Translations under genes and position numbers: made by a program
NCBI GenBank assembly: GCA_006503475.1
Contig: RSEH01000028.1
Coordinates: 148,714-212,713, forward strand
DNA length: 64,000 nucleotides
From: Stentor roeselii
Taxonomy: Eukaryota > Ciliophora > Heterotrichea > Heterotrichida > Stentoridae
Direction: 5' to 3'
The notes under the pieces: model-generated
Database searches by the model: none
Seen by the model: only the letters and a program-made list of their open reading frames with translations
What the model was told of the DNA's origin: nothing
In this document: piece after piece, positions 664 through 38,533 of the stretch
Layout: every line of letters begins with the position of its first letter
Position numbering within the stretch: the first letter of the stretch is position 1

Positions 664-2034
664 CTAATAAGGCTTGTAAGTCTTTAAATAAGCGATTAAG
701 TCGTCTCTTGTAGCTTCTCTGTGCAAGACCTGCCAATTCAAACAAGCCTGAATGTAATTCCCGACACTTTTTCCTTCAACGTTTAAAAGTTTCTTAATTT
801 CATCTCCCTGAATATGACTTACATTAATCAGAGGTTTTTCCAGCCAAAGAGCTCCAAGTCTATGAAATTCAACAAAAGCTTCCAGTTCTTGAATACTGTT
901 CAAAGGACTTTCAGAAGAAACATGCGCGGCGATGATTAGAGAAAGTCTCCAGTTTTCTTTTAGTTTACGAAGAAGCTCAGCTAAGAGAAGGATGTCGAAG
1001 TTTTGAAGGACTTGAATCATTTGTTTGCAGGTGGATACTATGTTTGAAATTGAAGCGATTTCTTGATTAGTCATCTTCAGTTCTTCGCAAACTAATTCTG
1101 AGACTTCTACGTCTCTTTTCTTACGTTTTACTTTAAAATCTCCGTCAAGAGAATAGAAAACTAGAAGAGCTGATGAGTAAAGAATCAGGTTTGAGTCACT
1201 TTTTGGACGAGAAATTTTGAACATTAATTCAGCTCCTTTTTCTAAAAGGTTCGGAAAGTCTTCTGGGACGTGGAAAACTATTTGAAGCAAGTTGAATTGG
1301 TGAAGGTATCGAAGACTTTGCATGTGGTTCACTCCTTTTATCATTAAGGAGAACTCTTTGTAAACTCTTTCTCGGCTGATCTTGTGTTTTAGCATTTGTT
1401 GCACTTGGTCGTTTGTTATTGCTGATGAGACTTCTTCTGTCATTGTTAGATTAAATCTTGAGGCGAAGCGAACTGTTCTTAGGACTCTTAGAGGGTCGTC
1501 TAAAAAGGTCGTCATTGGGTTGAGTGGGGTTCGAGCTATACGGTTTGTCAGATCTTGTCGGCCATGAGATGTTAGGTCTTCTATTTTACCTTCGTTTATG
1601 TTGAAGAACATGCTGTTTATTGTTAGGTCTCGTCTTAATGCGTCTTCTAGAGGGGTTCCTATTTTCTATATGGGGATTACTATTGATGGGATTCGAGAGT
1701 CTGCTGTATAGTCTTCAGCTCTCAAATTAACAAAATCAAGTTCAATTCCTTTAAACCTAACACAAGCAGTTTCCAGATGTTTGCTAGCATCCGGGTTAGC
1801 TTTAATCTTTCCAATAGAGCTCGCTCCAGCACTGGCACTAAACAAATTAGCAAAGCATTCCCCAGTCATATCATCCAAAGAAATATCAATATCATGACTT
1901 TCAAGTCCCAAAAGTTTATCCCTGACCCACCCTCCAGCAACTCTCAGAGTAGTCTTCAAAGAATGTTCATTTAAAGTTTTTTTCAATGTCTCAAAAAGTT
2001 CTATTTCCAACTCATTCAACTGAATTTCCTGCAT
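664..2034 (-). CDS. CCA-adding tRNA nucleotidyltransferase, two exons (2034..1681, 1665..664)
   Basis: Adds or repairs the 3' CCA of tRNAs using CTP and ATP. The spliced product is about 451 residues. The nucleotidyltransferase head shows the GG and RD of VAGGWVRDKLLG (residues 33-43) and the two metal-binding Asp in HDIDISLDD (48 and 50). After the intron come GTPLEDALRRDLTINSMFFN and LRTVRFASRFNLTM, which are the class II CCA/poly(A) polymerase signature blocks. The helical C-terminal body follows. The two halves appear as separate reading frames because a 15-nt intron (1666-1680) carries an in-frame TAG; removing it restores the conserved GTP-x-EDALRRD block exactly. The ATG at 2034 was chosen because the frame upstream has no ATG and would run into the neighbour. 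Only 8 nt separate this ATG from the divergent ATG at 2043. Family assignment is firm; homologues are TRNT1 and yeast CCA1. Confidence 0.95.
1666..1680 (-). other. 15-nt spliceosomal intron in the CCA-adding enzyme gene
   Basis: On the minus strand it reads GTAATCCCCATATAG: GT at the 5' end, TAG at the 3' end, A at position 10. It falls between codons and its TAG is in frame, so retention would end the protein after residue 122. Removing it joins RIPSI to KIGTPLEDALRRD, a conserved block of the family. The length matches the 15-16 nt introns reported for heterotrich ciliates. Confidence 0.95.
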
Positions 2035-2042
2035 TAATATAA

Positions 2043-3008
2043 ATGTCCCAACCTGCACTTTTTATAGAAGAGTCAGCCCATGAAGCCCTCATGCAACTTT
2101 TAAGACTTTTATCAAGCAACCAAGATATCAGGTCATTGACAAGCAACCACCAGTTGATTAAATACAAAGAAGACCTGGCAGATCCTTTGGAGACTTGTTT
2201 CGGAACATCAAGTGAAATTTATGATAATTTTACTAAAGAAGTGACTTGTGAGTGTTGTAAAAAGTACATATGTGACTGGGAACTACCTTGCAATCATCAT
2301 TTCTGCCTGGTATGCCTTAAAAAAGAGACAAAAATCCTAAAGGCTACAATCAGCGCGCTTTATGAAGACGCGCAATACTTTCCAAAGTGCCCGATATGCC
2401 AAAAGGTAATAACCCGTCAAGAATGTCAAAGAATATTCAAAGTTGCAAAGGAAAAAAGTCGATTAAAAGAAACAAATAATTTCAAACTTTGCCTTTTTTG
2501 CAAATTACGTCGTCCTCCTAATAAATTTTTCTACAGTTGTGATGAAATCTGTATATTTTGCGGTTTTCATTTAGTGAAGTTTAATGAAAGTTGTATTTTT
2601 TGTGGAGATAACAGTGTGAAAGAGACTTATGCGAATTATTCTCAGGGTGTTAAGTGCTCAGTTTGCAATCAACACAAGAATATCACGGAGGATCTTTGCA
2701 CGGAGATCTGCAAACAAGAGGTTCATTGTTATGAATGCCTGAGACAGGCATGGTCAGAGGGAAAATGTTTAAAATGCGGATTGGACCTTGACCAGGCAAC
2801 AATGAACTATCTTCAACAACTCATCTTCACTGAATGCAAAATTTGCCGAAATGCCAGTGAAAGAAATTTCATGATAAAAAAAAATTGTTGTCAAGAAAAC
2901 GTTTGTATTTTCTGTCAAAAACAGGAAAATACCTGCTTATACTGCAAACAGAATATTAATAGGTCTGGAATTCGCATGCTGGATAAGGTTAGGGGTAGTT
3001 ATAAATGA
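2043..3008 (+). CDS. RING-type, Cys-rich zinc-binding protein (possible E3 ubiquitin ligase)
   Basis: A 321-residue protein. A C3HC4-like RING can be read near residues 69-121: CECC, then CNHHFCLVC, then CPIC. Two more zinc-ligand clusters follow: CSVC with CYECL and CLKCG, and CKIC with CIFC and CLYC near the C-terminus. This array resembles RING/RING-between-RING proteins, so a ubiquitin ligase role is plausible, but substrates cannot be inferred. No membrane segment is visible. The ATG at 2043 is only 8 nt from the divergent ATG of the CCA-adding enzyme. The stop TGA (3006-3008) overlaps the next gene's ATG in the tetranucleotide ATGA. The ring count and exact ligand pairing are uncertain. 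Confidence 0.85.
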   Translation: MSQPALFIEESAHEALMQLLRLLSSNQDIRSLTSNHQLIKYKEDLADPLETCFGTSSEIYDNFTKEVTCECCKKYICDWELPCNHHFCLVCLKKETKILKATISALYEDAQYFPKCPICQKVITRQECQRIFKVAKEKSRLKETNNFKLCLFCKLRRPPNKFFYSCDEICIFCGFHLVKFNESCIFCGDNSVKETYANYSQGVKCSVCNQHKNITEDLCTEICKQEVHCYECLRQAWSEGKCLKCGLDLDQATMNYLQQLIFTECKICRNASERNFMIKKNCCQENVCIFCQKQENTCLYCKQNINRSGIRMLDKVRGSYK

Positions 3009-6000
3009 TTTTTTTTTGCCAAATTGTCCTGGCTTTAAAGATTTTTCCGAAATCAGGACCTGAGACTGGCGGTACTCTTGTCACACTCAGTGACGCGATT
3101 TTTATTCCTGAAAATGGCCTCAGCTGTATTTTTGGACTGGTTTCAACTACAGTGGTCTTTCTGAATCAAAGTGAAATTCAATGTGAAGCTCCTCCTGGTA
3201 CAGGGGAAACAAACTTAACAATTTCCGGTCTCTCTACAATTAAAGAAGACCTTTTTACTTACTACAAACCTTTAAAAATTCTTGAACTTTCTCCTCAGAA
3301 CGGCTCAGACCTGACCTTCCACGAAATTTCAATAAAACCATCAGAAACTTTAGAAACCGACGACTGGTCATTGAAGATTTCTGACTACTCCACGAAATGT
3401 TCAGGCCTTTCCTGCCATATCCCACCTCTTCCTCTTCTAATAGAAATTTTCAACACATCTTCCAATATTTTTCCTATTTTTCTATCAAGAAACTCTCAAA
3501 ACTTCGAAGATTCTGGTTTTTTCTTTGAATTTTTTCCTTCAAACCTTGATATTATCGGGTACTTCAAAGCGACTCCGACTCACGGGCCTTCTCGAGGCGG
3601 GTCTTTGGTTCACATTGTTTTCAATGAAAAGGCTGGGGTCTTGTTTCCGAAGTGCTTGTTCGGCAAGAAGGTCTCTGAAGGGTTTAATGCAAGTGACTCG
3701 GATTTTTGGTGTTATTCGCCTGAAGGTTTTGGAAAGGTTAACTTACGAGTTAGTGTGAATGGAGAAGATTTTTCACAGCAGGGAAGAGAATTCGTTTTTG
3801 ATAATTTTACATTTTTTTCGTATTACCCTGATCAAGGCACTGTGAATGGACAGACTTCTGTCGTGATTAAAGGAGTCTTCACTCCTTATAATACTATTAT
3901 TTGTCGCTTTGGAAATGTGAAGACTACTGGAAGTTTACTTTTAGGACAGTTTTTAACTTGTCCTAGTCCTTCGCAAAGTGCAGGGAAAGTGGAACTTTCA
4001 GTGAGTTACAACTCGCAGGACTTTTACGAGATTGGGGGGTATTTTTACAGGGCAAAAGAAGACATTTTAACTATTTCTCCTCCATCAGGGCCTAATAGTG
4101 GAGGGACTTTAGTGACTTTTACAATGTCTTTCATAAACAACACCCAAAACGCTTACTGTAGAGTTGGTCCTTCATTCAAAACAAAGCTTTTTGATAACTT
4201 GACATGCATGGTGCCTCCAATGTCATCAGTGGGATCACCAGTGAAAATTTGGGTATCAAGTAACGATGTGGACTACGAGTCTTCAATAACTTTTACTTAC
4301 TACTCTCAACTTACTCTTGCTTCAGTCGTCCCTGCCTTCATTCCTGACACTTTAATGAGCAGGTCTTACAACTTAACAGGAACAAGTTTCTCCAACACAG
4401 GACTCATCCGAGTAAGTCTTCAAGGAATTCTTTACACAGGGAATTTCGTTTCAGCAACTTTGATTAACTTCACAGTTTCTGATCAACTCACCCCCGGTAG
4501 GTTGAATATTTCAGTTGCTTTAAACGGGCAGAATTTTTCTCCAAGTCAGGTTTTTTTAGAAGTTTTTAAAGAGCCGAGGCTTTGGAGTGTCAATCCAAAC
4601 TTCGGGTTTTTGAAAGGAGGAGTAAAAGTTGCTTTAAGAGGAAGTGATTTTGTTTATTCGGAAACAGTTTTTTGTAGGTTTGATGCAAGTGATGTGCAGG
4701 GGACTTGGATTAATGAGACTGTTGTTTATTGTGTTAATCCTGCATCGACTGTTGTTAAGACTTCGAATGTTTCTGTGAGTTTTAATAACAGGATCAATTT
4801 TACGAATGCTGTTAGTTTTGATTATATTGGCACTCCTGTATTACCTGCATTGACTTTTTCGAGGTCTTTTAATCAGGAAAAAGTTATTCAGAATATCAAG
4901 TTTGTCACTGCTAAACCTCCTGTCATGGTTAAAGCTGGACAGGTATGGGTCAAAATTATTTCAATTGATGGAAATTTTCAGTTTGTTATGCCGCCCCACC
5001 CATCATCAACAATAACCCTAAACTTTACCTACAATTTCCTAGAATTCCAAACAGGTCCAACCTTTACCTACTCAAGCGAGTGTCTATCCGGTAAGTACTG
5101 TCCAATCCAAAGTTTCTACACCCAGCTGAACTGTCCCCCTGGTTACTCCTGCCAAGGAACTTCAACAAAATTTCCAGTTCCCTGCAGTCCAGGAACATTT
5201 TCTGCTGGAGGATCATCTTCATGCTCTCCATGCCCATTAAACTTCTACTGTCCATTAATCAGTCTCTCTTCGCCACTTCTCTGCCCAGCAGGTTACCTTT
5301 GCAATTCAACAGGCCAGAGTTACGAGGCAGTGATTTGCCCTTCAGGGTTTGCCTGCAGTTCAAGCACGCGTTCACAATGCCCTGTCAGTTTTTGGTGCGG
5401 TTTAAGAACAGTTTTCACGTCTCCAGTTCTGGTTGGTGACTTTCGGTTCCCTCAGCCATGCATGAACGGTTCTTATTGTGCCCTGCAATCAGTTAATTCA
5501 TATGGTTCTGACTGTCCAGAAGGGTACTTTTGTGTCTTGGGATCGAGAAAAACTTGCATTGAGTCTCACTTTTGTAGAACTGGAAGCAAAGAACCTGTTC
5601 TTTGCTTGCCTGGGTTTTATAGTGACTCTAATGGGCTTTCTGAGTGTAAGGCTTGTGATGTCGGGTTCATGTGTCCTGGAGCTGGGAATCGGGATCCGAC
5701 TGTTTGTCCGGCTGGGTATGTTTGCTCTATCAAGGCACGGCCTAGTCCTTTTGATGTCTGTCCTGGAGGAAGTTATTGTCTGGAAGGGGTCACTACTGAT
5801 CAGGCTGGCACTGGACAGGGTGTTCCTGTTAAGTGTTCTTCTGGATCTTATTGCCTGATGGGGGTCGTTGCTGGAGACATCGTCGATGGCAACGTTAAAT
5901 ATGCTCAGACTTGCATTCAGGGAACTTATTGTGAAGAAGGTACTGACTCACCTGAAGCTACGCCTTGCACTGAAGGACATTTTTGCCCTCCTGGATCTGC

Positions 6001-9000: not shown

Positions 9001-10636
9001 CACCGCATTACTAGTAACACGTTTTCGACTCTTCAACTATTTTTTCGGTGAAAGTTTGAAGCAGCAGCTTCTCTTAGAAAAAAGCTTAATGAGTAGAAAC
9101 GTGAAAGGAAAATTCGAAAGTGGAGAAACTCACAACCGAATGATGGGAACAATGGTTCAAATGTCAGCTCAGTCACAAGTGACTTTTATGTTGCCATTAG
9201 TTTACTTATTTATCAGTATTTTCGCAGAAGCGACACAGATCCCGAAGAACTACGGCATTCGAAAGACTGACGTGAATTACTACTTGCTTTTTACAATAAC
9301 CATCATAATTCCACAGCTGATCATTGATGTTCTGATGCTTCATCTCATCGAATGTCTTTACGGTTACAAGCTTTTTGACTACTTGACTTATTGTTCTCAT
9401 CGATTCAGCACTCGTGCGACTTGGTGGCGATATGTGCTAGGACTCAAGCTTGACAAGTCCCTGATGCCTGGTTGGAGGTCGATCGACAGCATGTGTTTTT
9501 CATCGCAGTTTTATTTTTCTGTTTCACTTGCAAGTTGGGGAGTCGTTTTGCTGACCCTGGGCTTTACAATCATGATCCGAAATGCTTTTAACCCTTGTGG
9601 AGACCCTTTGATTTTTGTTTATCTTTTCTTGACCCGTTATCTTAGTTTCTGCATTAAAAGGTTCTATCTGTTCATCCGACCTTATGTCAGACTCTGGGTG
9701 CCTAACTCACATCCGATATTTCAAGAAGAATTCCCGGAAAATGACTCAGATGACCAGATAGTTGACCTGGTTGAAGACTATGCAGAGGAAAATGAGTTAA
9801 TTGAAAAGATGAAGTCTGACCTGTTCCGAGTGCACTTCACGAAACTGAATATTCCTTTTTTAGTTGAGAATTTGATAGATATCGTTGAAAGTAACCAGCA
9901 GTGTCATAACTATTTGAGAAATAAGTATAAACAGCTGTTTGAAAGACACCTGGTTGATGAAAAGGAAAGAAATTATATTGATCATCGACTTGGACTGCTG
10001 AAATTGCTTCCAAATCATAAGTTCGACCCTGAATTTGAAGTTAGTTTTGATAGAGACCTCCAAGTCGTGCCCAAATGTGAAAAAATCTCAGAGTCAAGCA
10101 CGAAAATCATGAGAAAATGGCTCTCAACTGCCAAATTAAACATTGAATTAAAAAAAGCACTTGAAGATGAAAGGTTTCTTAAAGATTCCTGTGAAATCTG
10201 CCATGTAACCAGTCACTTAAAAATCATTCAAAAGCGCAGTTTTGATAGCATTCTTTTTGAATACCAGGAAAATTTCAAGGGGTACCCCTTGAAACTTAAT
10301 CATTGGAAAACTTTTTATTTCAGGAACCAAGTCATTAAAACTGTTTGCATTGACTGTGCTTATTTAGAACAACTCAAAGAAAATGGAGACCCTAGAGCTT
10401 TTAGTGATCTTACGAAAATCGCGTATGAAGAGTTCAATCTTTTTAAGGAAATTAAGCCTAAAGTCTCTACAAGAACTGCGGATATTGCGAGACTTTGGCT
10501 TGAAAGGGCTAGGTCAGTGCTGGGGGATGTAGAAGAGAACAGTGGGCTTTTTACAATTCAAAGTGTGAGTGAGCAGGACTTATCAGCTGTCGTTAGTGAA
10601 TTGCATGAACCTCATGATTCTTTTGAACAGTATTAA
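3005..10636 (+). CDS. giant IPT/TIG and Cys-rich repeat multi-pass membrane protein (2,543 aa)
   Basis: A short hydrophobic signal peptide (MIFFCQIVLAL) is followed by several IPT/TIG-like Ig folds (about residues 12-690), seen as repeated P-x-x-GP-x-x-GGT blocks such as FPKSGPETGGTLV and ISPPSGPNSGGTLV. Next is a long Cys-rich tract (about 693-1190) of ephrin-receptor-like/GCC2-GCC3 repeats of the CPAGYYC type, then an extracellular domain to about 1655. A membrane block starts near 1658. After three hydrophobic segments there is a very acidic cytosolic loop (about 1783-1880), then more segments to about 2236. The 300-residue tail holds CEIC (about 2397) and CIDC (about 2448), a possible zinc site. 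This architecture occurs in large ciliate surface proteins. A receptor or adhesion role is inference; the ligand is unknown. The start overlaps the upstream stop by 4 nt. Confidence 0.85.
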   Translation: MIFFCQIVLALKIFPKSGPETGGTLVTLSDAIFIPENGLSCIFGLVSTTVVFLNQSEIQCEAPPGTGETNLTISGLSTIKEDLFTYYKPLKILELSPQNGSDLTFHEISIKPSETLETDDWSLKISDYSTKCSGLSCHIPPLPLLIEIFNTSSNIFPIFLSRNSQNFEDSGFFFEFFPSNLDIIGYFKATPTHGPSRGGSLVHIVFNEKAGVLFPKCLFGKKVSEGFNASDSDFWCYSPEGFGKVNLRVSVNGEDFSQQGREFVFDNFTFFSYYPDQGTVNGQTSVVIKGVFTPYNTIICRFGNVKTTGSLLLGQFLTCPSPSQSAGKVELSVSYNSQDFYEIGGYFYRAKEDILTISPPSGPNSGGTLVTFTMSFINNTQNAYCRVGPSFKTKLFDNLTCMVPPMSSVGSPVKIWVSSNDVDYESSITFTYYSQLTLASVVPAFIPDTLMSRSYNLTGTSFSNTGLIRVSLQGILYTGNFVSATLINFTVSDQLTPGRLNISVALNGQNFSPSQVFLEVFKEPRLWSVNPNFGFLKGGVKVALRGSDFVYSETVFCRFDASDVQGTWINETVVYCVNPASTVVKTSNVSVSFNNRINFTNAVSFDYIGTPVLPALTFSRSFNQEKVIQNIKFVTAKPPVMVKAGQVWVKIISIDGNFQFVMPPHPSSTITLNFTYNFLEFQTGPTFTYSSECLSGKYCPIQSFYTQLNCPPGYSCQGTSTKFPVPCSPGTFSAGGSSSCSPCPLNFYCPLISLSSPLLCPAGYLCNSTGQSYEAVICPSGFACSSSTRSQCPVSFWCGLRTVFTSPVLVGDFRFPQPCMNGSYCALQSVNSYGSDCPEGYFCVLGSRKTCIESHFCRTGSKEPVLCLPGFYSDSNGLSECKACDVGFMCPGAGNRDPTVCPAGYVCSIKARPSPFDVCPGGSYCLEGVTTDQAGTGQGVPVKCSSGSYCLMGVVAGDIVDGNVKYAQTCIQGTYCEEGTDSPEATPCTEGHFCPPGSAEPNQTTPGFYSKGKGNALPQPCPAGNYSNTFQATFCLPCPAGFYCPFDQMTTPIICEAGKYRELISASIYCELCPEGTYSVTPGLTSIDQCIPCDASIICLSRGLNSLNKTAICPEGYVCDAGTTSSLLEKSPCPGGFWCPTKTSKMADYGICDPGFYCPKATGISSKNQFVCLEGFYCPPATYAELNSKGQYEFINSSNYKVVLKAKEDYNKNCSGSCEPKEIPVFEMCEEDKRLSDILKDNYTVLQCPKGTNSKSGAVCVGQCIPDGQLTTLINPEKGFRALSEINNSILLPPLSMAILTFDFTAVDVNFYYNIDFSLQVWSPNNESLPLPDYFSSDGFFHLKFNLTLTNIGSEEYLITPTIYLHNDLFIPYISQLESTLETFVLTPSRAVSESEVLFAAFIWEGSFGTVDMPFNMIDLTKSDGSPIDPWLLDTGVNEEWNGTQYDSPPYDKTFWINFGISSVAFPWLPFFMNCEYFGDRIYIHRLTEAMENCTFVDANGVRIVQPLPVSGVSAVADSCNIAIKCFYAESVQASTSTRWFEINQEEVLYYMSRHAISPSDFEATMSSQDSGFTQHIKDQDDYVVLVKFVPSGGGSGVPSIVTFDLSYYQKDEKTKLLVSADVTLSAYDPALLNSPNPSYTLVINYFPLGWFELLNKFQFEMAIFFLLFIFISIILLVLGYAVYRVHLCCVKDPPVLHFRFYLWVSSLPPTVGVICASLPVIIIAYCMEPLTAAFSSISGDWAVEPPLDPDTVTLFMRGRIGMNMGFCAFCFFVYGSRLLIPKPDPPEEEEEGEGEEEEGEGDPPEESGKILNSSNQMSKQEPEEKPENQDENTDARFEDSESSQREKKSNESLSASEESPAPESEPEEEPEELPLWDGLKMKRRYFMVACLAISVFASIKLEISYSKVFSDNIFMFQVGFCTVDIFLYQLFSRIILDEALLIVPILTSLFINRAILMLASPNFTIFMECYVVNFGFIIFERLYLNPFIEVIEQKLQLYTALLVTRFRLFNYFFGESLKQQLLLEKSLMSRNVKGKFESGETHNRMMGTMVQMSAQSQVTFMLPLVYLFISIFAEATQIPKNYGIRKTDVNYYLLFTITIIIPQLIIDVLMLHLIECLYGYKLFDYLTYCSHRFSTRATWWRYVLGLKLDKSLMPGWRSIDSMCFSSQFYFSVSLASWGVVLLTLGFTIMIRNAFNPCGDPLIFVYLFLTRYLSFCIKRFYLFIRPYVRLWVPNSHPIFQEEFPENDSDDQIVDLVEDYAEENELIEKMKSDLFRVHFTKLNIPFLVENLIDIVESNQQCHNYLRNKYKQLFERHLVDEKERNYIDHRLGLLKLLPNHKFDPEFEVSFDRDLQVVPKCEKISESSTKIMRKWLSTAKLNIELKKALEDERFLKDSCEICHVTSHLKIIQKRSFDSILFEYQENFKGYPLKLNHWKTFYFRNQVIKTVCIDCAYLEQLKENGDPRAFSDLTKIAYEEFNLFKEIKPKVSTRTADIARLWLERARSVLGDVEENSGLFTIQSVSEQDLSAVVSELHEPHDSFEQY

Positions 10637-10773
10637 TGAGTTTAATGTGGAATTATAAGAGATTAGGAATGATTGTTTCTTGAATCATGTTTTTATTGAA
10701 AATTATGAAGAATTTATAAAGTTTATTGAGATAGTCACTACTCAATTATCTAATCTATTCAATATCAACAAAG

Positions 10774-11679: not shown

Positions 11680-11706
11680 TAATAAAAACTACAAGAATTA
11701 CTTACA

Positions 11707-12861: not shown

Positions 12862-12975
12862 TTAATTTCTTACATTTTTATCGGTCAGGGACTTTAAGCA
12901 GTTAAAGATGAGGTCTGCAGAAGTTTTTAGAATTAAAAGATTCCTGTCACTTCATCGTTAAAGATTTTTGTAATT

Positions 12976-15930: not shown

Positions 15931-15939
15931 TTAGTGTAA

Positions 15940-18900
15940 TTAAGGCGTTTCTAGTTGAGGGGAAAGTCCTGGGTGAGGGTAGAGTGAACGTGATAGAATT
16001 CCTTTTGGAGGACTTCCTGAACGGAAGAGAGTTGTTATTGAGACTTTTGATGTTGATTTCAGTGAAGAGTCGTTTATGTTCAGGTTTGGTGAGTTTTCTT
16101 GCGGACTTATTAAAATCGGATTTTTTATTGTTGGGTCAGAATCAGGGTCAGGAAGTTGAAATGACTCAATCGCTGAACCTGAAAAATCTCTCACGAGACG
16201 CACTCGGGTGTTGAAGGCCTTGTGACGGAATTCACCGATTTTTGGGTTTTCTGGGTCTATTCCTATCAATTCGTAGTCCGAGAGATTCAGGTCTGCCTCG
16301 ATCACTTGACCATCGGCGTCGATTATTAATGGAGGGTAAAAATCTTTTACTACTGGAAGCTTTGACTGGTATCCGTGAAGTTTTAGGTATACCCTGCGAA
16401 GGTCGTCGAGGTCTATTTGAAAATCGTCGAAATCGATCATTTCTTCAGAGATTATGTGCGATGGGGCTATGTTTGCTAGACTGAAGCTAAAGTGCTTCTT
16501 GCTGAGCACTGGTTTTTTTATCCTGATTCCTGAAATAATTCCAGGATAGTTAACCACTGTACCTTCAGAAGAAGGAGGAGTCGACACTTGCTCAGACTCT
16601 TCAACTTCAGGTTCTTCTTTAAACGAGCCCTGATTCCTCTTAGTAAAATCAACAATCGACTCAGTAACAACAACAGTATTCGAAGACTCTTCAACAGTTT
16701 TCTTACTTTCCAAGTACTTAACAACCGAAGATTCCGAGTCACTACAAAAAGCAAAAAAAGTAAATCCCTGACTAAAAATTTCAAGTAAAGCACAATCAAC
16801 ACAAATGCTAAAAGTAAGAGATCCAGGTGAAAAACTCACAAGAATAACAGCACAAAGTGCAAGAAACGGCACAAAAACCACAAAAAACTGTAAAATTCCA
16901 AAAAATCTAAAAACTTTTCGAAATGATAAATTCGACTCAAACTTGGCATCAAACAATTCAACCCTCGGTATTTTCGCAACAAGTAACAAGACAGTTTTAA
17001 AAGAAAAACAGGTCATAAGGCAAGTCAACAAAACAATTCCCCAGCAATGAAGTCTGGTCCAAGTTTTATGCAAATAATCAGTTCTTCTCAAGTAAACCCA
17101 GTAAAAAATAACAAAGCAAAAGTTGATCAAATAATGCAAAGTAAAGACCCCGACCATCCCTCCAAGAATCAAATCAAATTTCTGAGATTGAGATAAAAGG
17201 ACCCTGCCTTTAAACCCATCAGCTTCATTGATACTTCCCAACAGGCAGATCTTTGTAATAGCCTCTAAACAAGCGACAAAGGGACAGGCAATCATAGAAA
17301 ACTGTCCTCCTACAAACAAACTAACAGCAGCAGAAACTCCTGCAATAACAGCAGAAATAGCAGAAATAATAAAAGGATTCTGTTGAACTTCAAATTCATC
17401 TGACCTTCTGACAGATTCTTCTTGGTAGTCATCAGAGCACATTGCATTATCAAACTTGCACTGTTCATTATTACAGGAACTATCACAGACACTGTTATTA
17501 AACAACTCAAAAGGACATCCATCAGCACAGAAGCCAGTTTCATTCAAGACACAAGAAGAGTTTTCACTGGAATAGCCCTGAGGACAGCTTTTCAAGCAAA
17601 TTCCTTCAAATAAAACCATTCCTTCTTCACAGCTGGAACAATTCGTTGGACTTCCGAGGCAGTCCAGGCATCCTTGACAAGAAATACAAACTGATTCAAC
17701 TTCCACTGTTCGATTTGGGCACTTCTCAAGGCAGGTCCCGTTGAGGTAAACTTTTCCTTCTGAACAGCTTGACAAGCACCCGTCTTCACTGCAAACTTCG
17801 CAGTTGAGACAATCAAGGCAAAGCCCTCCAGATGCGAAGAAGCCTGAAGGACATTCAGATACGCAAGACGTGTGAAAAAGATTCAGTCTCGAAAGGCAAC
17901 TGGTGCAGAGACTACTGCTCAAACAACTTGAACAAGAAACTGGACAAGGCTCACAAAGGCTTCCTGATGCGAAAAAACCTGAATCGCATTTGTTAACGCA
18001 GGACTTGCCTTGAAGAAGAAGACCTTCGAAGCAGGTTAAGCATGATGTGGAAGATTCACATGTTTTGCAGGGATATTCGCAGAGGATGCAGGAGGCTTTG
18101 GACGAGTAAAAACCTTCTGAACATTCAGATATGCATGATGAGGACTCTAACACCCAACCTGAGGGGCAGGATGAACATGATGAACTGGAAAATTCGCAGG
18201 TTAAACAGTTGGAGGAACATGATTCGCAGATTGAGTTCTTTGGGAAGGAACCTGATGGGCAGATCGATACGCAGGAGGACTTGAATAAATTTAAATTTGG
18301 TGAACAGGAGGTGCAGGAATTTGGACTTGTTTTACATGTTAGACAGTTTTCACATGATACGCAGGCTCCTGAGAATGAGATCTGTGGGTCAGGGCAGGAT
18401 ATTATGCATGTGGATGATGAGAGGGTGTAGGGGGCACTGCATTCGAGACATTTTTCTTTTGATTCACAATTTTTGCAAGGTAAGATGCAGCTTAAACATA
18501 TCTTTCCTGAGGGATAATATCCAACAGAGCACTTCTCCAAGCACTCAAACCCAAGCAAGTACCCTTCAAGACATTCAACACATCGAGTAGAAGACCCTTC
18601 ACATTGTTGACAAGGATATGAGCAAGACTCACATGTTTTCAAACTAGTAGCATAAAACCCTGACTTGCATTTAGAGTGACAAGTCTCATCATAAAGATAA
18701 GGAAAATTTTCTCCACAAGAAGTGCAAAAACTCGCGACTCCAGCACAAGTCTTACAGGGTGACTTGCAAGTTATTGTTAAAAATACCTGTTGCTGTTCAA
18801 CCAAATAATCAAGGCTAGTCTTTGAGGTAACTGTTACAGGAAAAGTCCCGGCCTCTGAAGGGTTGATCAGGTTTTTTAAGGTTATCTCTCCTGTATTACT

Positions 18901-21450: not shown

Positions 21451-21452
21451 GA

Positions 21453-23924: not shown

Positions 23925-24176
23925 TTTTATTTAGTGGGTGGAAGAAAGTTTAGTTTAGGAAGAAGGGCTCTGAGAAAGAAGATGAGAATAATAAAGATTC
24001 TTAAAATTAAAGATATTTTTATTTAACATAAAAATGATTACAGTGAATCAAAGTGATAACTAATCTTTTTAGTAATATCTTAAAAACCACTAAAAAAAAT
24101 CAATCATTTAAATCAAGAACAAATCTCCTTCAACATTAAATCTCTAAAACTTGAATCCTCATTAAATCCAGTCAAA

Positions 24177-32006: not shown

Positions 32007-33303
32007 GAATGTATTATTATTAGAGTATTTTTTATTAATTGATATTTGGTATTTTATCATTATGAGAATTTATTGAAATTTGGTTTGGGTTTATTAAGGA
32101 TAAATTAATTCTTTTATGTTTACAGTTGCCTTGCTTCAATTGTCTGAACTTGATGGATTAAGGATAGTATTTATGCTTAGTATTTTAAGAATTCCAAATT
32201 ATATTTAGAGATAACCTATAACCATTAGTTTAAAGGAAAACAGGTATTTTTATTCGAATATTTTATAATTATAGCACAATTCATAAATATATTTATAAAA
32301 AATCCTTAATTAATACTCTTCAACGTAAATAGCTAATAACATTTTTTTATTACATATAGATCATAACAATAGTCAATCTTATTATAAAATTTGAGTGTCT
32401 CATAAGTTTACAATAAATAAAGAGTTCAAGTCATACATCTTTATAGAAATGAAGTGTAAGGCCCTGAAGAAACTTATTTTCATTTGAGCTATGAAAATAA
32501 AAACAAGAAATTTAATTAATCCTCAGAAAGACATATATATTGTAATTATCAAGATCAAATAAATTTTAAGATATTGAGTAAAGGTTTGAACAGTATAGTA
32601 TATCATTATTCCTATAATTCAAGGAGAAATGAGCAAACATAAATTTTTCGAAGTACAAGCCGATAGACTCCTGCAAAGACCATTCATCACTCAGCTGATA
32701 GTCGTCACAATCGTAAGAAATGAGTAAATATTTCAAAAATCTTTAAGTTTTATAAGGTTTTTGGCTGTATTTATTTAATTTGAGTATCTTTACTAGATTG
32801 ACCTATATCGATTGATGATTATTTAATTCAGCATCTGGGGCTAATTCAATACTATAATATCAATTAATTAATTATAAAAATAATAGCTTTATAAAATTCA
32901 TACAAAACAAAACGATAATGATCAACGTAACTAAAAATTCAAAAGAAAGTAAACTTTATATAGTTATAGATTATAAGATCCATTTTTTAAAATTTATTTC
33001 ATAAGATAACTTATATTATCAATCAAAACACTGAACTCATTTTTAATAAACATATCATAAGTTTTTATTCAAGTATTCCATATCTAGAAACCAAAAACAA
33101 AGACCCAAGAACAGACCAAAAAATCCCTGAAACAAGATCTTGATAATCTGCAGAAATTATAAAAATCTTCATAAAAATTAAAGTGTCTAGCATAATGATT
33201 GTCCCAAAATAAATAAATCAAATAAAAGACTCAATCTAAAAAAACTAAAATTTTCTAATTCCATCAAATAACGATTACTCTATTCATCTATAAAAGTAAA
33301 ACT
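32007..33303. other. 1.3-kb AT-rich intergenic region with coding-like scraps
   Basis: Between the kinesin and the MFS transporter. Most is very AT-rich with no gene. Two patches look like protein remains. At 32629-32727 the minus strand reads SYDCDDYQLSDEWSLQESIG in an open stretch, and the plus strand also carries a 32-codon ATG ORF. At 33065-33264 the minus strand has hydrophobic sequence with one frame change. Neither could be assigned to a family. Confidence 0.6.
33065..33264 (-). pseudogene. probable remnant or tiny gene for a hydrophobic membrane protein
   Basis: An ATG at 33264 opens MELENFSFFRLSLLFDLFIL. After a frame change a second stretch from an ATG at 33193 reads on (MLDTLIFMKIFIISADYQDL), followed by a strongly hydrophobic segment ending GILE and a TAA at 33065-33067. 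The two pieces together look like two to four membrane segments. No 15-nt GT...AG intron joins the frames, so either this is a decayed gene or the 42-codon second part is an independent small ORF. The family is not recognised. Confidence 0.35.
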
Positions 33304-34881
33304 CTATCTCTTATTTTGAAAAAAAGAGATAATTACCAAAGCCAAGGCAGCAAGTCCTCCAATCACATAAAAAATCTTATTTCTATCCAAATAAAGCGTA
33401 ACATACGTTTGAATGAAATAAACCGTAATACTCGCAAAGCCATTCGACAAAAACAACAGAGCATAAACCTTAAACCCAACATCTTTCCCATAAAGTTTAA
33501 CAGAAATCGGTGCAAGTTGAGTAATAGTTCCACCTGAGCAAGAGTACAAAATGCAAAGCCAGATGAGAAAAGGTGCCTGATATTTACTTATAGTTGGAAA
33601 TGTGAAGCAAATAATAACTTCAATGATACAAAGAACAATATAAGTCAATCGATAAGATTTTTTATCAAACATCAGGCCCCACAAAGGTCGATTTGACCCG
33701 TTCATGACAGAGCCGAGTGATCCGACAACAGTGAGAAAAGTGTCGTTGTAACCGTATTGAAGTCCTATCACTTTGAAACTTGCAATAGAGAACATCCCAG
33801 CAGTTCCAGCAAGCATCGTAGTTAAAAAAATCAGGTAAAAATTACGAGTTTTTAAAGCATCACAGAATGTTCCTTTAAAGGTCTCTTCAACTGTTGATTC
33901 TTTTTTACCTTGAGTATCAGGACGGTCCTTGATTTCACGAGAAGAATGTTTAACACTATCAAATTTCTCATTTTCTTTAAATTCTTCTTTTTTCTCCTCA
34001 TTTTCCTCGTTTTCTACATCATTTTTCATGTTTTCTTCATAATTTTTCATGTTTTCTTCATCATTTTTCATGTTTTCTTCATCAAGTTCAATTGAATTTT
34101 TCTCTAATCTAACCAATTCAGATTCTCTTTTTGTTTCATCATCTTGAGTCCTCGAACTTAAATTTTGTTTCAAGTCAACATCTTGAATCATAATCAATGC
34201 ACAAACAACAATAAACGAATAGACACAAGCTAAAACAATAAACATCTTCGGAACATTTTCAGCGATTTTCTCTTCAAAGTACTTATCAGTGACGCCTCCA
34301 AACGATTTTTCAATTCTCGGTTTTAAGTTGTCAGGATTCGCGACATAAGTTGCGACAAAGTTGAAAATAAAAGACCCAAAAGCAAAGCAGCCAACAATAA
34401 TCCCAGTGACAAGGCCTTTATGTGCCGGGTAGCATTGAATAGCGATCATAAGTGAAGGGACATACTGATTAAAACTTACAGCGAGGCCTGACCCTACCCC
34501 GAGCATGACTCCATAGATGATGATGACTGGAATTCTTGTTGTTAGACCTGCCATGATGAAAACAACTGCCACATATATAAAAACTCCGACGTACATAAGT
34601 CTGAATTTAAATCACTTCTTGGGAGTAAAGCGCTTTTGCAAGTAAGTCGCTGGTTGGAATACGAAACTCCAGGAAAACACGCAGATGTAGAAGACTATTG
34701 AAAATGATGACATTGAAACGTACCCCGTTTTCATACCGATGTATGAAGCTATGTAAGGCATTATGTTCCCTGTGCAATAAATTGTGCCTACCACCTGATT
34801 AGTCATTACTAGGTGGATTAGACCGCAACCGATGAATGTTATAACTTTTCGATTACTTTGACTACATCGTGAGTTTGACAT
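33304..34881 (-). CDS. MFS transporter, oxalate/formate antiporter or monocarboxylate-like, two exons (34881..34616, 34600..33304)
   Basis: The spliced product is about 520 residues with about 12 membrane segments. N-terminal features such as GNIMPYIASYIG and the cytosolic PATYLQKRFTPKK loop resemble the OFA/MCT branch of the major facilitator superfamily. A hydrophilic central loop separates the two six-helix halves and contains a Glu/Asn/Lys repeat encoded by a 21-nt tandem repeat. The second half has a conserved SGGTITQLAPISVKLYG segment. It probably moves small organic anions such as carboxylates across a membrane; the substrate cannot be read from sequence. The frame is broken by an in-frame TGA that lies inside a 15-nt intron (34601-34615). 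The ATG at 34881 precedes the first helix. A decayed copy of the same gene lies upstream at about 35240-35660. Confidence 0.88.
34021..34083 (-). repeat. three tandem copies of a 21-nt unit coding E-E-N-M-K-N-x
   Basis: Three consecutive 21-nt units begin at 34021, 34042 and 34063 and differ by very few bases. Read on the minus strand they encode the repeated heptad EENMKND/Y in the central cytosolic loop of the MFS transporter. The unit length is a multiple of 3, so copy-number change would not break the frame. Confidence 0.9.
34601..34615 (-). other. 15-nt intron in the MFS transporter gene
   Basis: On the minus strand it reads GTGATTTAAATTCAG. It carries an in-frame TGA that splits the gene. 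Removal joins FTPKK to LMYVGVF in the same frame. The 5' GTG and 3' CAG differ slightly from the GTA...TAG of the other three introns, so readthrough or a true break is the alternative; splicing is favoured because length and frame fit exactly. Confidence 0.8.
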
Positions 34882-36254
34882 TTTAAGGATGTGGAATTTA
34901 GTTTTTTGAATTGGGAGATTATTTTAAATTTGGAATATTTTTGGGATATTTTAGAAATTAGGTGAAATTTTAAGGGTTTTTTAGGGGTTTTAATAAATTT
35001 AGGTTGATTGCTTGGAAATATTTTGGTATGTTTTGGTTTTAGAGGAAATGTGATATTATTAGGAGTAATTAAATTTTAGTGTAGGATGACATTTTAAATT
35101 GTATATTTTAGTTCAAATTATTATTTATAATTGGAATTCACAAACTCTTATTAGATTTCGATATAAAGTAACCCTGACTATCTATAAACTATAATTTAAA
35201 AAGTATTAGTATAAATCTCATTTTTAACTCAAAATATACAGTGATACTTACCTATAGATAAAAAATCACAAGCATAATTTAATTTGAAATATTTAACAAA
35301 TCCATTATCCAAGAACAAAAATTTATAAACTCTACAATTTTTACATAGAGTTTGATATAACTTGAAGTGAGTTGAGTAATTGTTCCACTTGGCACATATA
35401 CTTGACAGCAATCTAGATCAGAAAAGGTGCTTGATATATTCTAAATGGTTAGAAATGTGAAACATAAAACTATTTTAATAAATTAGAGGAAAAATAAGTC
35501 TAATGGTATCGTTTTTTAACAATCAAACCCCACTGTGGCTTTCCGCATTCATTCATCACCGAGTCAACTAAATCAACAGTGAAAAAAGAGTCGTTGTATC
35601 GAAGGCCAAGGATTTTAAATTTGGTCTCCTGCGATTTCCAGTAGTAATTCAAACATCTTAACTAAATATGAGATAGAATTTTTGAATTTAAGACAAACAT
35701 ATTAGGTTCTCTCAGGGGCTTCATTTTTTTTTTTCTTCAATATCATCTTCTATAGAAAACTTGATTTTATGAGATGAAGTGATATCAGATTGGTATCTAA
35801 ATAATTTTTCTTTCCTCAACTATCTTCCTCATCTTCACTAGTATTCATAGTCAGTTTAATTTAAAATTTCCGACTGAAGTCGAAATTTCAAAATAAAGCA
35901 CTCATTACTAGCAACTAGCAATTATTCCAGAAGGTAAACCTTATGATCAGGGCAGCATTATTGCTATCCTAAAGCGGTTAGATACTATGAAAAGCTTACC
36001 CCAAGCCTTAGCCTATTCCAAAAGTATTTCAATAGATGATGATTCCTGAACTTAATTTTAATCTTACATTGATGAAGCCTTAACCAATATATAAAAAATC
36101 TCTAACATATTTTCTAGGCCATTTATTATACATAATCTTTTCCAGGTAACCTTAAAAGATATTCTTTTTCCACAACCCAGAAATTCCACCCAATCCAAAT
36201 TCATCAAATCTGATCTTAACCCAAATCCAACTAAAACATTATCAAAATTTATAA
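34882..36254. other. 1.4-kb gene-poor region holding an MFS relic
   Basis: Upstream of the MFS transporter. Besides the relic at about 35240-35660 it is AT-rich. A short coding-like plus-strand stretch at about 35926-36049 reads IIPEGKPYDQGSIIAILKRL and continues to a stop, with a TAG shortly upstream; it has no ATG and no recognised family. The last 200 nt form the leader of the SF-assemblin gene. Confidence 0.6.
35240..35660 (-). pseudogene. decayed copy of the neighbouring MFS transporter gene
   Basis: Direct comparison with the intact gene shows matching stretches in the same order on the same strand. For example, gtgagttgagtaattgttcc (near 35366) corresponds to gcaagttgagtaatagttcc (near 33511), and gaaaaaagagtcgttgtatc (near 35580) corresponds to gagaaaagtgtcgttgtaac (near 33738). 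The matching part covers the second half of the protein. Frames are broken by indels and stops and no long ORF remains. Weaker similarity may extend to about 35830. This is a tandem duplicate that died. Confidence 0.85.
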
Positions 36255-37010
36255 ATGAATAAGAATCGTCTTGACAATGGCTACAACGACCGAGTAAGAA
36301 GACTCTCCGAACGTTTATCCTCAATGCAGATAACTCTTGACTCAGAAAGAACCTCGCGTTACACCGACATAGAAAAAAGACTAGACAACTTAGAAAAAGA
36401 ATTCTCAGACCTATCCGAACAATCCAACAAAAAATTCACTTTTCTCAAAGACAACATCTTAAAAATCGAAAAAAGAGTCGACGAAGAGTTCCAGTTACGT
36501 GACCAGTTTTTCCAGTCAAAATCAGCGGAAATCAACTCTTTTCAAGACGAAATGCAAGAAAGTCTTTCAAAGTACTTAAAAGGCAAAAAGGAAAACGAGT
36601 CAAAAATTTACAAAATCATTGAAGATAAGTTCGAAGGACTTAAATTGAAGTTGATTGAAGAAAGCAAAAATTTCAAGGAAAGTGAAGCTGAAGCGAAAAG
36701 TTGCATTGAACAAGATGTGCCGAAGTTGATTGAATTTGTTCAAAATTCTGTCGCTGAAAGGGTTGAAGTTGAAGCAGGACTTAATAAAAAACTTGATCAT
36801 GTCATTGGAAATATTGAAAATGACTTGGTTGTTGAAACTAAAACAAGGGAAGAAACTGAAGAAGCTATGCTTGCTATGCTTCGTGATGTCGTTAGTCGCA
36901 TTAAGAATGATCTGGATATTGAAAGGAAGGAAAGGGAAGGAAGTGAGGAGACACTTTTGGGACTTTTAGAAGAAACTTGCGCGAAAATCTCGAATATAAC
37001 TAAATATTAG
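36255..37010 (+). CDS. SF-assemblin / beta-giardin family coiled-coil protein
   Basis: A 251-residue, almost fully coiled-coil protein with a short basic, non-helical head (MNKNRLDNGYNDRVRRLSER). The rod shows regular heptads, and the C-terminal pattern ERKEREGSEETLLGLLEETC is a hallmark of SF-assemblin. These proteins form striated fibres attached to basal bodies in algae, apicomplexans and ciliates, so this one probably belongs to a cortical or basal-body-linked fibre. Length is close to the usual 280-300 residues. It stands alone, with an AT-rich leader upstream and about 200 nt before the next gene on the same strand. Confidence 0.88.
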   Translation: MNKNRLDNGYNDRVRRLSERLSSMQITLDSERTSRYTDIEKRLDNLEKEFSDLSEQSNKKFTFLKDNILKIEKRVDEEFQLRDQFFQSKSAEINSFQDEMQESLSKYLKGKKENESKIYKIIEDKFEGLKLKLIEESKNFKESEAEAKSCIEQDVPKLIEFVQNSVAERVEVEAGLNKKLDHVIGNIENDLVVETKTREETEEAMLAMLRDVVSRIKNDLDIERKEREGSEETLLGLLEETCAKISNITKY

Positions 37011-37213
37011 AGTTTAGTTAATGGTTTAGAGAAATACTTGAAATATATAAAATTCTCTTCATTCAAAAAAATCATTCTTGATCTAGAATTATTTTTTCAT
37101 AAGATTTTACTTATCCTAAAGTAAACAAATCCAAAACAATTCCTCACCCAAAATAAACATCTTCAACTATAAACATTAAAAGTTCCCCATAACCCAGTTA
37201 TAATTTTTTTCAA

Positions 37214-38533
37214 ATGAATTTACCATCAAAAAGACAAAGATTCACAGAGGAAGAACTAAAAATAATCCAAGAATTTTACAAAAGAGCTCCACCCCAGATG
37301 AGCCCTTCAAGTCAATTTAATTATTTCTTCCCTCAGCCGATGCAGCCCTGGCCGACTCCAGCAGTGGTTCAAGAACGGAAGCCAGCATCGACATCAGAAA
37401 ACCTGAAAAATTACATCACTAGAGCCTTTTCGAAGTGCCAAAGCGATGTAGAAAGGGACCTGATGGAGAAGCTCATTAAGGATGTTATTACTCAGAAGAA
37501 AAGCACAGGTTTGTTTAATTTACAGGATTGGGATAGAACTGAACTCCCGTTATTGCCTCGTGAGCAGGTGGTAGTGGTTCAAACCCCGCTAATCGCTGTA
37601 AAAGAGGTGTCAAGTTCAAGTAATGATCAAATACAGAAACGTAAATCCCGGTTCAAGCAATGCGAGATCGAAGAAGACTCAAAACCGAAGACGAAGTCAG
37701 ACCCGAAAGAAGAGATTCCATGTGACTGGAAGTTAGTCGGAACCTGCACCGACTATGAAAAGCCATATTTTCGACTTACTTCAAAGCCTGACCCGAAGAC
37801 AATCCGCCCGGAAGGAGTTTTGAAGAAGGCTTTGGCGTATTTTAAGGAAAAGTGGAGGAAGGGAGAGATAAAATATGAGTACTTCTCAGAACAGCTCAGG
37901 TCCATCAGGCAAGACCTGACAGTCCAGGGCATAAGGAATAAGTTTTCTGTTGAAATTTATCAGGTTCACACTCGACTTGCACTTGAAGCTCAGGACATGG
38001 ATCAGTATAACAGCTGCATGAGTCGACTCTTCGAACTTTATAAGGAAGGACTGCCTGGACGAGTACCTGTAAGAAAGATTTAGGAATTTAAGGCTTATCA
38101 GATCATTTACTTCACTCTGCAGCATCTTTACATACAGCTTGAAAAATGTTTGAAGACTCTTACGGAAGATGAAAAAAAATCAAGTGAAATTAAACAAGCC
38201 ATGAGTTTAAAAGCTGCTTTGATCCAAGGTAATTATCATCAGGTTTTTCAGTTACGACCAACCCTCCTCCATTGCGGTACATTTTTAATCGAAATATTCG
38301 TGCCAAAGTTAAGAGCCTTATCCTTAATAAAGATCTGTAAAGCGTAACATAAAATTAGTTACATGCCAAGCATTCCAGTTGACAGTATAAACATAGAACT
38401 GGGTTTCACAAGCTTCAAAGACGCTCAAACTTTCATAGTACAAAACGGTGGAGTGATAGAAGACGGTAACTTAATATGCAAAAGTTCCTTAGTAGGTTTG
38501 CGAAACTGCAAAATCCTTGAGTCCAAAAGCTAG
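37214..38533 (+). CDS. SAC3/GANP-PCI domain protein, LENG8/Thp3 type, three exons (37214..38068, 38084..38343, 38359..38533)
   Basis: The spliced product is 429 residues. The N-terminal half is disordered, with Pro-rich (PQPMQPWPTPAVV) and basic parts. The C-terminal half is the SAC3/PCI module: RPEGVLKKALAYFKEKW, then SEQLRSIRQDLTVQGIRNKF, YQVHTRLALEAQDMDQYNSC and LKAALIQGNYHQVFQL, ending with a winged-helix-like tail (SIPVDSINIELGFTSFKDAQ). This matches human LENG8 and yeast Thp3, which pair with a DSS1-type/PCI partner in mRNA elongation and export. Two 15-nt introns with in-frame stops hide the last third: a simple ORF call would end at residue 289 with a wrong tail. The three exons join in frame and rebuild the conserved block in order. 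The stop is TAG at 38531-38533. Confidence 0.93.
38069..38083 (+). other. 15-nt intron 1 of the LENG8/Thp3-like gene
   Basis: Reads GTAAGAAAGATTTAG, with A at position 10 and a TAG that is in frame. It lies between codons after residue 285. Removal joins GLPGRVP to EFKAYQIIYFTLQ, the conserved LPG...EF-x-AY-x-I-x-Y block of the family. Confidence 0.95.
38344..38358 (+). other. 15-nt intron 2 of the LENG8/Thp3-like gene
   Basis: Reads GTAACATAAAATTAG and contains in-frame TAA. It interrupts a codon after its second base (GC|T). Removal joins LIKICKA to YMPSIPVDSINIELGF, the conserved join seen in LENG8. Confidence 0.95.

Follow-up and report, generated by a model that had tools for sequence, protein, structure and literature searches.

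In-frame stop codons in the 15-nt introns of Stentor roeselii look like by-products of splice signals and intron phase

Four 15-nt introns in three genes

Why should four tiny introns of identical length each carry an in-frame stop codon? The question is raised by the window analysed here, a stretch of 64,000 nt of the heterotrich ciliate Stentor roeselii (contig RSEH01000028.1, positions 148,714 to 212,713; genome of 44.4 Mb). A first-pass annotation had flagged four introns whose removal restores conserved protein blocks, and had proposed that their stops let retained transcripts be recognised by decay. All four 15-mers are present, are bounded by GT and AG, hold an in-frame stop and have A at position 10, including the one that begins with GTG. 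They look like spliceosomal introns of the heterotrich type as judged from sequence, and homology supports the excision of each.

The first, GTAATCCCCATATAG (1666–1680, minus strand), is a phase-0 intron with an in-frame TAG from its 3′ splice site. It interrupts a gene of the tRNA CCA-adding/poly(A) polymerase family (664–2034, minus strand; PF01743, 85.6 bits) that has at least two introns and matches 9kma, a relative of CCA enzymes, with an E-value of 4.2e-73, or 3.9e-76 once both introns are removed. After splicing at 1666–1680 the join is gap-free in the alignment to 9kma, and the PolyA_pol score rises from 84.7 to 85.6 bits. The second, GTGATTTAAATTCAG (34601–34615, minus strand), is a phase-2 intron with an in-frame TGA from its 5′ splice site, in an MFS transporter gene with at least three introns (33304–34881, minus strand; PF07690, 72.3 bits). 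Its removal raises the MFS_1 score from 43.7 to 51.9 bits, and the lactate transporter 6g9x then aligns over the join without a gap.

The other two, GTAAGAAAGATTTAG (38069–38083, plus strand; phase 0, in-frame TAG from the 3′ splice site) and GTAACATAAAATTAG (38344–38358, plus strand; phase 2, in-frame TAA from the 5′ splice site), belong to a SAC3/GANP-family, LENG8-like gene with at least two introns (37214–38533, plus strand; PF03399, 79.0 bits). In the alignment to the LENG8 structure 9dlr (E-value of 2.7e-45), each site stands out as exactly five residues without a counterpart. Pfam responds to intron removal in a mixed way: MFS_1 and PolyA_pol scores rise, whereas SAC3_GANP drops from 81.8 to 79.0 bits, which counts against excision. 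Taken together, the four 15-nt introns are very likely real.

Stop-free introns in the same genes

A stop in each intron does not hold as a rule. Two of the three genes contain three further 15-nt introns, all in phase 0, ending in CAG and free of in-frame stops, so that 3 of the 7 introns found in the three genes lack one. The caution attached to the original observation, that introns without stops would have been invisible to the search, was thus correct and proved decisive. Nor was it improbable that all four flagged introns should hold a stop: if each carries one with a probability of 0.63 to 0.79, the chance is 0.16 to 0.39.

In the CCA/poly(A) polymerase-like gene, a motif scan revealed GTAAGTCATATTCAG (808–822, minus strand). 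Its removal lifts the scores against 9kma (250.0 to 260.0), 9ns4 (231.3 to 238.2) and 9ns2 (205.9 to 211.4), and each of the three printed alignments then runs across the join without a gap. Before splicing, it shows as an exact five-residue gap in the printed alignment to 9kma alone of the three, within a second domain that scores a weak 9.1 bits.

The MFS gene contributes GTAAGTTTTAATCAG (34465–34479, minus strand) and GTAATGACTAATCAG (34795–34809, minus strand). The former coincides with an exact five-residue gap relative to 6g9x, and likewise to 8hpj, there within a 4.2-bit domain; its removal takes MFS_1 from 51.9 to 72.3 bits. Removing the latter is neutral for Pfam (72.3 versus 72.2 bits), and here the evidence comes from paralogs of the gene (C85, 88% identity over 220 aa; C349, 60%). 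Paralog L092 lacks exactly five residues at the equivalent place, indicating that the intron is absent, while L091 keeps it, likewise stop-free, as GTACTCTTCAATCAG. The paralogs also differ from the window gene in the stops themselves: the intron at 34465–34479 ends in CAG in the window and in TAG, a stop, in L091 and L092, and the TGA at 34601–34615 is replaced by TAA in both.

Many spliced stop-free introns had been named in advance as an observation that would refute the original reading. Several stop-free introns now emerge by homology; that these and the other introns are spliced, that retained transcripts decay and that stops are under no strong selection is inferred from the sequence.

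Intron length and consensus beyond the window

The introns conform to the consensus GTRA-N5-A-N2-YAG. Across 29 introns, A+T amounts to 69% and A occupies position 10 in 28, two of the 29 having been found with a motif that contains this A. A coding-potential scan requiring only GT-AG ends and a stop recovered 16 candidates of 15 nt, as against none of 14, one of 16 and two of 17 nt; at a laxer threshold the numbers were 18, 1, 2 and 2, respectively.

Kinesin domains allowed a scan blind to both stop and phase, in which every deletion was scored against a profile. More than 3 bits were gained by 12 of 163 GT-N11-AG deletions (11 stop-bearing and one, L088:435, stop-free), compared with 0 of 143 GT-AG sites outside introns and 221 of 45,300 other deletions. 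Above 8 bits the contrast was 9 of 163 versus 0 of 45,300, and four kinesin introns gained merely 1.0 to 2.0 bits. The sample comprised 17 domains of consecutive rank among 122 matches, chosen after dense stops had been noticed there, beside the 30 top-ranked matches and the window's own kinesin. In these domains, 16 of 17 in-frame stops fall inside a 15-nt GT-AG segment, and A is at position 10 in 14 of 15 introns, as counted by eye. The remaining stop, a TAA at nt 24 of L086, is spanned by no 15- or 16-nt GT-AG segment and counts against the pattern.

These data bear on a reading without introns, in which TAA and TAG would be sense codons in the gene body. Context-dependent stops are found in other heterotrichs. 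Changed codes also occur among ciliates, Blepharisma with UGA as Trp being described in PMC9942806. We nevertheless regard this reading as extremely improbable here, given the exact five-residue gaps in homology, the paralog L092 without the 15 nt and the confinement of kinesin stops to 15-nt GT-AG segments in 16 of 17 cases.

Among the matches listed, at least 27 stops occur in 20 of 122 kinesin domains (14 TAG, 13 TAA, 0 TGA), at least 13 in 12 of 135 kinase domains (10 TAG, 3 TAA, 0 TGA) and at least two, both TAG, in 2 of 39 DEAD helicases; none was seen among the 19 ABC domain matches listed. The matches listed in the MFS search hold 14 TAG, 9 TAA and 2 TGA in 17 of 22, one TGA being that of the window's own intron. 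The absence of TGA from kinases, kinesins, DEAD helicases and ABC domains weighs little, because few frames end in TGA at all (11 of 117, with intron stops counted).

A match to the motif is not enough to call an intron. Both strands of the window contain 11 matches to GTRA-N5-A-N2-YAG, 7 of which are introns. The other four (9280–9294, 17872–17886, 32949–32963 and 37722–37736) are strong matches that were not accepted, and 37722–37736 aligns to LENG8 as coding sequence. Similarly, a dynein has GTAA-N5-A-N2-CAG at L011:1630, within the sequence that codes for Walker A. A further candidate, the stop-free GTAACCCTTACTCAG at L081:57, near the L077 intron, was rejected as its removal lowers both the profile score (by 2.9) and the Pfam score (322.7 to 319.2).

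A deletion scan of dynein frames, covering 91.5 kb in the 23 of 30 loci whose examined part is free of in-frame stops, gave no convincing hidden stop-free intron. Gains above 3 bits, summed by hand, were seen for 4 of 280 GT-N11-AG deletions, none of the form GTA...A..YAG, and for 9 of 990 other patterned and 88 of 10,132 grid deletions. L034 was set aside as a duplicate, and L032, L035, L036 and L038 for their many stops. L022 and L033 contain a single stop apiece and were also left out; in the coding-potential scan each yields one stop-bearing intron candidate.

Splice signals and phase probably account for the stops

Among 24 introns defined by homology, 19 contain a stop and 5 do not. It is the splice signals that spell these stops: the 5′ site of a phase-2 intron gives G|TAA or G|TGA, and the 3′ site of a phase-0 intron can give TAG. 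A stop is present in all 10 phase-2 introns, in all 9 phase-0 introns ending in TAG and in none of the 5 phase-0 introns ending in CAG, so that phase and 3′ site together account for the stop status of all 24. The origin of the stops is thereby located in the splice sites, and they appear to follow, as a side effect, from the spelling and placement of the introns rather than from a rule for each intron.

A rival view is that of selection for translation-stopping introns, as in Paramecium, with introns, their length here being fixed at a multiple of 3, kept only if they hold an in-frame stop, for the benefit of nonsense-mediated decay. Stop-rich 3n introns are described in other ciliates (PMC5014332, PMC2633312, PMC11334263), and the decay machinery appears to be encoded here, with matches to UPF1_Zn_bind (198.9 bits), Smg4_UPF3 (56.9 bits), Mago (213.8 bits) and Upf2 (34.1 bits, over 52 positions only). 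Moreover, the 19 of 24 exceeds the roughly 65% obtained when 18 homology-defined introns are set in each of the three phases. However, the sample is small and was partly picked by its stops, the window genes having been chosen for them and both fetched paralogs being stop-bearing, so that the stop share of 79% is likely too high. The choice between T and C at the 3′ site lends selection no support, being independent of phase within error: TAG ends 9 of 14 phase-0 and 5 of 10 phase-2 introns (Fisher P 0.68, not significant). Applying the phase-2 mix of 3′ endings to phase 0 predicts 17.0 stop-bearing introns; the observed 19 is slightly higher, a point against the by-product account. With stop-free introns in the window genes as well, and the intron at 34795–34809 stop-free in both paralogs that carry it (the window gene and L091), we consider such selection unlikely.

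In the explanation that we hold to be probable, a heterotrich-type ciliate with standard stops has 15-nt spliceosomal introns of an ordinary kind, whose in-frame stops arise as by-products of consensus and phase. In phase 2, a 5′ site of the form G|URA would bring UAA or UGA into frame; in phase 0, a 3′ UAG would be read as a stop and a 3′ CAG as a harmless codon. Because 15 is a multiple of three, a retained stop-bearing intron would end translation on the spot and might expose the transcript to UPF1-type decay, whereas a retained phase-0 CAG intron would add just five residues. The original proposal is right in that translation would halt at such an intron if retained, and machinery able to respond is encoded. 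That the stops exist for the sake of decay is unsupported, because the consensus spells the stops, the T/C choice does not depend on phase within error and the paralogs include stop-free copies. A tempting rule for tiny introns is thus corrected by counterexamples within the same genes.

Comparison with introns of other ciliates

Stentor coeruleus has introns of 15 and 16 nt, with A at position 10 in 8005 of 8806 (Nuadthaisong 2022, PMC9505925). The introns described here resemble them in length, GT-AG ends, the A at position 10, AU-richness and mostly one or a few per gene, and differ in A+T content, which is given there as 75.63%. In S. coeruleus, 8173 introns are annotated as 15 nt long. 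We saw nothing on intron phase or stop content in PMC9505925. More broadly, we recognised no treatment of stop content or phase in heterotrich introns in the openly licensed literature, preprints aside; one may already be in print. Introns of Blepharisma stoltei are reported as 15–16 nt long (PMC9942806, PMC9942856), alike in length, yet with UGA read as Trp in Blepharisma (PMC9942806) a phase-2 GTGA intron would be stop-free there, unlike here.

Paramecium, Nyctotherus, Tetrahymena, Oxytricha and Stylonychia also have short introns whose 3n members are often stop-bearing, and the accounts in PMC11334263, PMC2633312 and PMC5014332 take those stops as a guard acting through nonsense-mediated decay. 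Intron length is described there as variable, with 3n introns reported either as depleted themselves or as enriched in stops, whereas the introns found here are 15 nt long and the stop is a splice signal, at a frequency close to expectation. In Paramecium bursaria, in-frame retained introns are reported that may be translated (PMC12862383).

No intron position found in phase 1

The by-product account leaves one feature unexplained, the absence of phase 1. Of the 12 homology-defined intron positions, not one falls in phase 1 (P 0.008 under equal phases), in which neither splice signal gives a stop, and the same holds for the 16 candidates of the coding-potential scan. Stops might not be selected base by base; instead, phase-1 introns might be lost or never fixed. 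If nearly all introns of the genome are 15 nt long, so that retention cannot shift the frame, phase would take over from length as the filter, and introns would persist in phases 0 and 2 only, with a 3′ YAG or 5′ GURA that can itself give a stop, the splice signals doubling as terminators. Both the phase filter as such and this substitution of phase for length are tentative ideas, and we lean against them. In addition to the missing phase, only three stop-free phase-1 GTA-N6-A-N2-YAG sites occur in 310 kb of open frame, two of them coding for dynein Walker A. On the other side, phase-0 CAG introns would be equally translatable and yet are kept; 12 positions are few, and intron phases are unequal in most eukaryotes. 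The scan, moreover, sees stop-bearing introns only, and 8 of the 29 introns would hold a stop if placed in phase 1. A phase 1 that stayed empty over thousands of introns would suggest an unusual route by which selection on splicing errors shapes genes.

Avoidance of intron look-alikes in exons was considered and rejected. Codon shuffling predicts 16.3 of the stop-free phase-1 sites against the three found, and the deficit is general. Ten other 3n spacings (9 to 39) average 10.0 in phase 1, and 3 versus 10 has a Poisson probability of 0.010 for one of eleven spacings.

A separate observation is a phase-1 candidate at L005:2734, which lies outside the kinase domain.

Stop-bearing and stop-free introns in three genes

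The first-pass annotation had described four 15-nt introns, each bounded by GT and AG and containing an in-frame stop codon. The four 15-mers were indeed found with GT/AG ends, A at position 10 and an in-frame stop in every case, and are correctly seen, homology-supported candidates. On the minus strand, a CCA-adding/poly(A) polymerase relative (664-2034; Pfam PolyA_pol, alignment to structure 9kma) carries the putative intron 1666-1680 (phase 0; stop TAG, the last three intron bases), and an MFS transporter gene (33304-34881; MFS_1, alignment to 6g9x) carries 34601-34615 (phase 2; stop TGA, intron bases 2-4). On the plus strand, a SAC3/LENG8-like gene (37214-38533; SAC3_GANP, alignment to 9dlr) carries 38069-38083 (phase 0; TAG, last three bases) and 38344-38358 (phase 2; TAA, bases 2-4). 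The further claim that intron removal restores protein homology was borne out by structure alignments at all four sites: the spliced joins at 1666-1680 and 34601-34615 are gap-free against 9kma and 6g9x, respectively, and at each of the two SAC3-gene introns exactly five residues have no counterpart in human LENG8 (9dlr). Pfam scores agreed for MFS_1 (43.7 to 51.9 bits upon removal of 34601-34615) and, slightly, for PolyA_pol, but not for SAC3_GANP, which fell from 81.8 to 79.0 bits.

The annotation had also cautioned that its search could not see stop-free introns, and rightly so. A motif scan, covering open coding frames first and the whole window next, revealed three such 15-nt candidates in the very same genes, all minus-strand, phase 0 and ending in CAG; the three genes thus have seven identified introns, three of them stop-free. 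Removing 808-822 from the polymerase relative raised the scores of the three top-scoring relatives of known structure (from 250.0 to 260.0, 231.3 to 238.2 and 205.9 to 211.4 bits), with a gap-free join in all three. In the MFS gene, 34465-34479 matches a gap of exactly five residues in two transporters of known structure (one alignment is weak), and its removal raised MFS_1 from 51.9 to 72.3 bits. Removal of 34795-34809 left MFS_1 unaffected (72.3 to 72.2), and exactly this segment is absent from the MFS paralog L092.

Another paralog, L091, is 88% identical to the window MFS gene over 220 aa and has all three of its introns. Both versions of the first, GTAATGACTAATCAG and GTACTCTTCAATCAG, are stop-free. 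The second contains TGA in the window gene and TAA in the paralog; the third lacks a stop in the window, where it ends in CAG, but has one in L091, where it ends in TAG. The two copies differ at 13, 13 and 76 of 220 first, second and third codon positions, and at 9 of 45 intron bases. L092 (60% identity) has no first intron; the other two carry TAA and TAG. Directly upstream of the MFS gene lies a decayed partial copy (35326-35598; 68% over 283 columns), and within the gene a 21-nt tandem repeat (33990-34084; 4.6 copies) encodes EENMKND-like heptads.

A stop-blind scan of kinesin loci

Each 15-nt deletion was scored in 48 of the 122 listed kinesin matches (46.7 kb), using a profile that excluded the scored sequence whenever it was a reference. 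Gains above 3 bits occurred at 12 of 163 GT-N11-AG sites (11 stop-bearing, one stop-free) and above 8 bits at nine; among other deletions away from introns, the corresponding counts were 221 and 0 of 45,300. The sole stop-free gainer, at position 435 of kinesin locus L088, coincides with a stop-bearing intron in kinesin L082. Four more stop-bearing introns in the scanned domains gained just 1.0 to 2.0 bits, and the scan thus misses about a quarter. Inside 15-nt GT-AG introns lie 16 of the 17 in-frame stops of these domains; the remaining one, TAA at nt 24 of the L086 kinesin domain, is covered by no 15- or 16-nt GT-AG segment. In kinesins L082, L088 and L089, introns at common positions keep their splice signals and have diverged inner bases.

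Splice signals, phase and stops

Among 29 introns, 11 of them found via their stops and two via the motif, the consensus is GT (29), A or G at position 3 (26/3), A4 (28), A10 (28), T or C at position 13 (18/11) and AG (29). A phase 2 intron presents bases 2-4 as a single codon, either TAA or TGA, both of which are stops. A phase 0 intron presents its closing triplet as a codon, and here TAG is a stop and CAG is not. In phase 1 neither splice signal spells one. Hence it is the splice signals that supply the stops. The pattern that each intron has a stop is partly a detection effect, and the rest follows from the splice consensus.

Homology defines 24 introns (seven in window genes, five in MFS paralogs, 12 from the kinesin scan). 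A stop is present in 19 and absent from five (79%, Wilson 60 to 91%); the sample is skewed towards stop-bearing introns, and its members, at 12 positions, are not independent. All ten phase 2 introns have a stop; the 14 in phase 0 comprise nine TAG and five CAG. In phase 2, where the choice has no effect on the stop, T and C are equally frequent at the 3' site (5/5), and the TAG excess in phase 0 over phase 2 is not significant in these 24 stop-skewed introns (Fisher P 0.68). The phase 2 T/C share predicts 17.0 stop-bearing introns against 19 observed; in this stop-skewed sample of 24 introns at 12 positions, phase and 3'-site counts are compatible with selection for stops as well as with its absence.

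Phase 0 accounts for eight of the 12 positions and phase 2 for four, with none in phase 1 (P 0.008 under equal phases). This empty class could reflect a filter against phase-1 introns, a reading we regard as rather unlikely; the presence of phase-0 CAG introns argues that translatable introns are tolerated. A coding-potential scan gave 11 introns in phase 0 and five in phase 2; phase 1 was allowed, but only stop-bearing introns were detectable. Across 185 open coding frames (310.5 kb) there are only three stop-free phase-1 matches to GTA-N6-A-N2-YAG; dynein Walker A coding sequence accounts for two.

The window introns resemble those of S. coeruleus, of which 8173 of 8806 annotated are 15 nt long and 8005 have the branch A at position 10 (PMC9505925). 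Introns of 3n length are described as rich in stops in Paramecium, Nyctotherus and others (PMC11334263, PMC2633312 and PMC5014332). In the literature searched, as far as accessible and with the main Stentor genome paper outside it, we came across nothing about the phase of heterotrich introns or the stops they contain.

Genetic code, decay genes and dyneins

In the genome assembly (44.39 Mb, 522 contigs), some frames run for thousands of codons when read with the standard code, and frame ends comprise TAA (61), TAG (45) and TGA (11), intron stops included; together these indicate standard stop codons. Combined with the 15-nt introns, such a code suggests a heterotrich ciliate. Matches to UPF1, UPF3 and Mago, plus a short Upf2 match, make decay of retained stop-bearing transcripts plausible, judging from gene content. 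The UPF1 zinc domain (PF09416) has eight matches, some adjoining one another. One is strong, at 198.9 bits, and the other seven score lower, at 52 to 83 bits; they perhaps represent an enlarged UPF1-like family.

No convincing stop-free intron was found in 23 dynein loci (91.5 kb). Among the best 22 dynein heavy chain matches, 21 have unbroken frames of 4026 to 4658 codons, and the remaining one, L022, has one stop-bearing intron candidate. Two dyneins carry an intron-like GTA-N6-A-N2-YAG in the region coding for Walker A (L011:1630 and L015:1624), possibly as cryptic splice sites.
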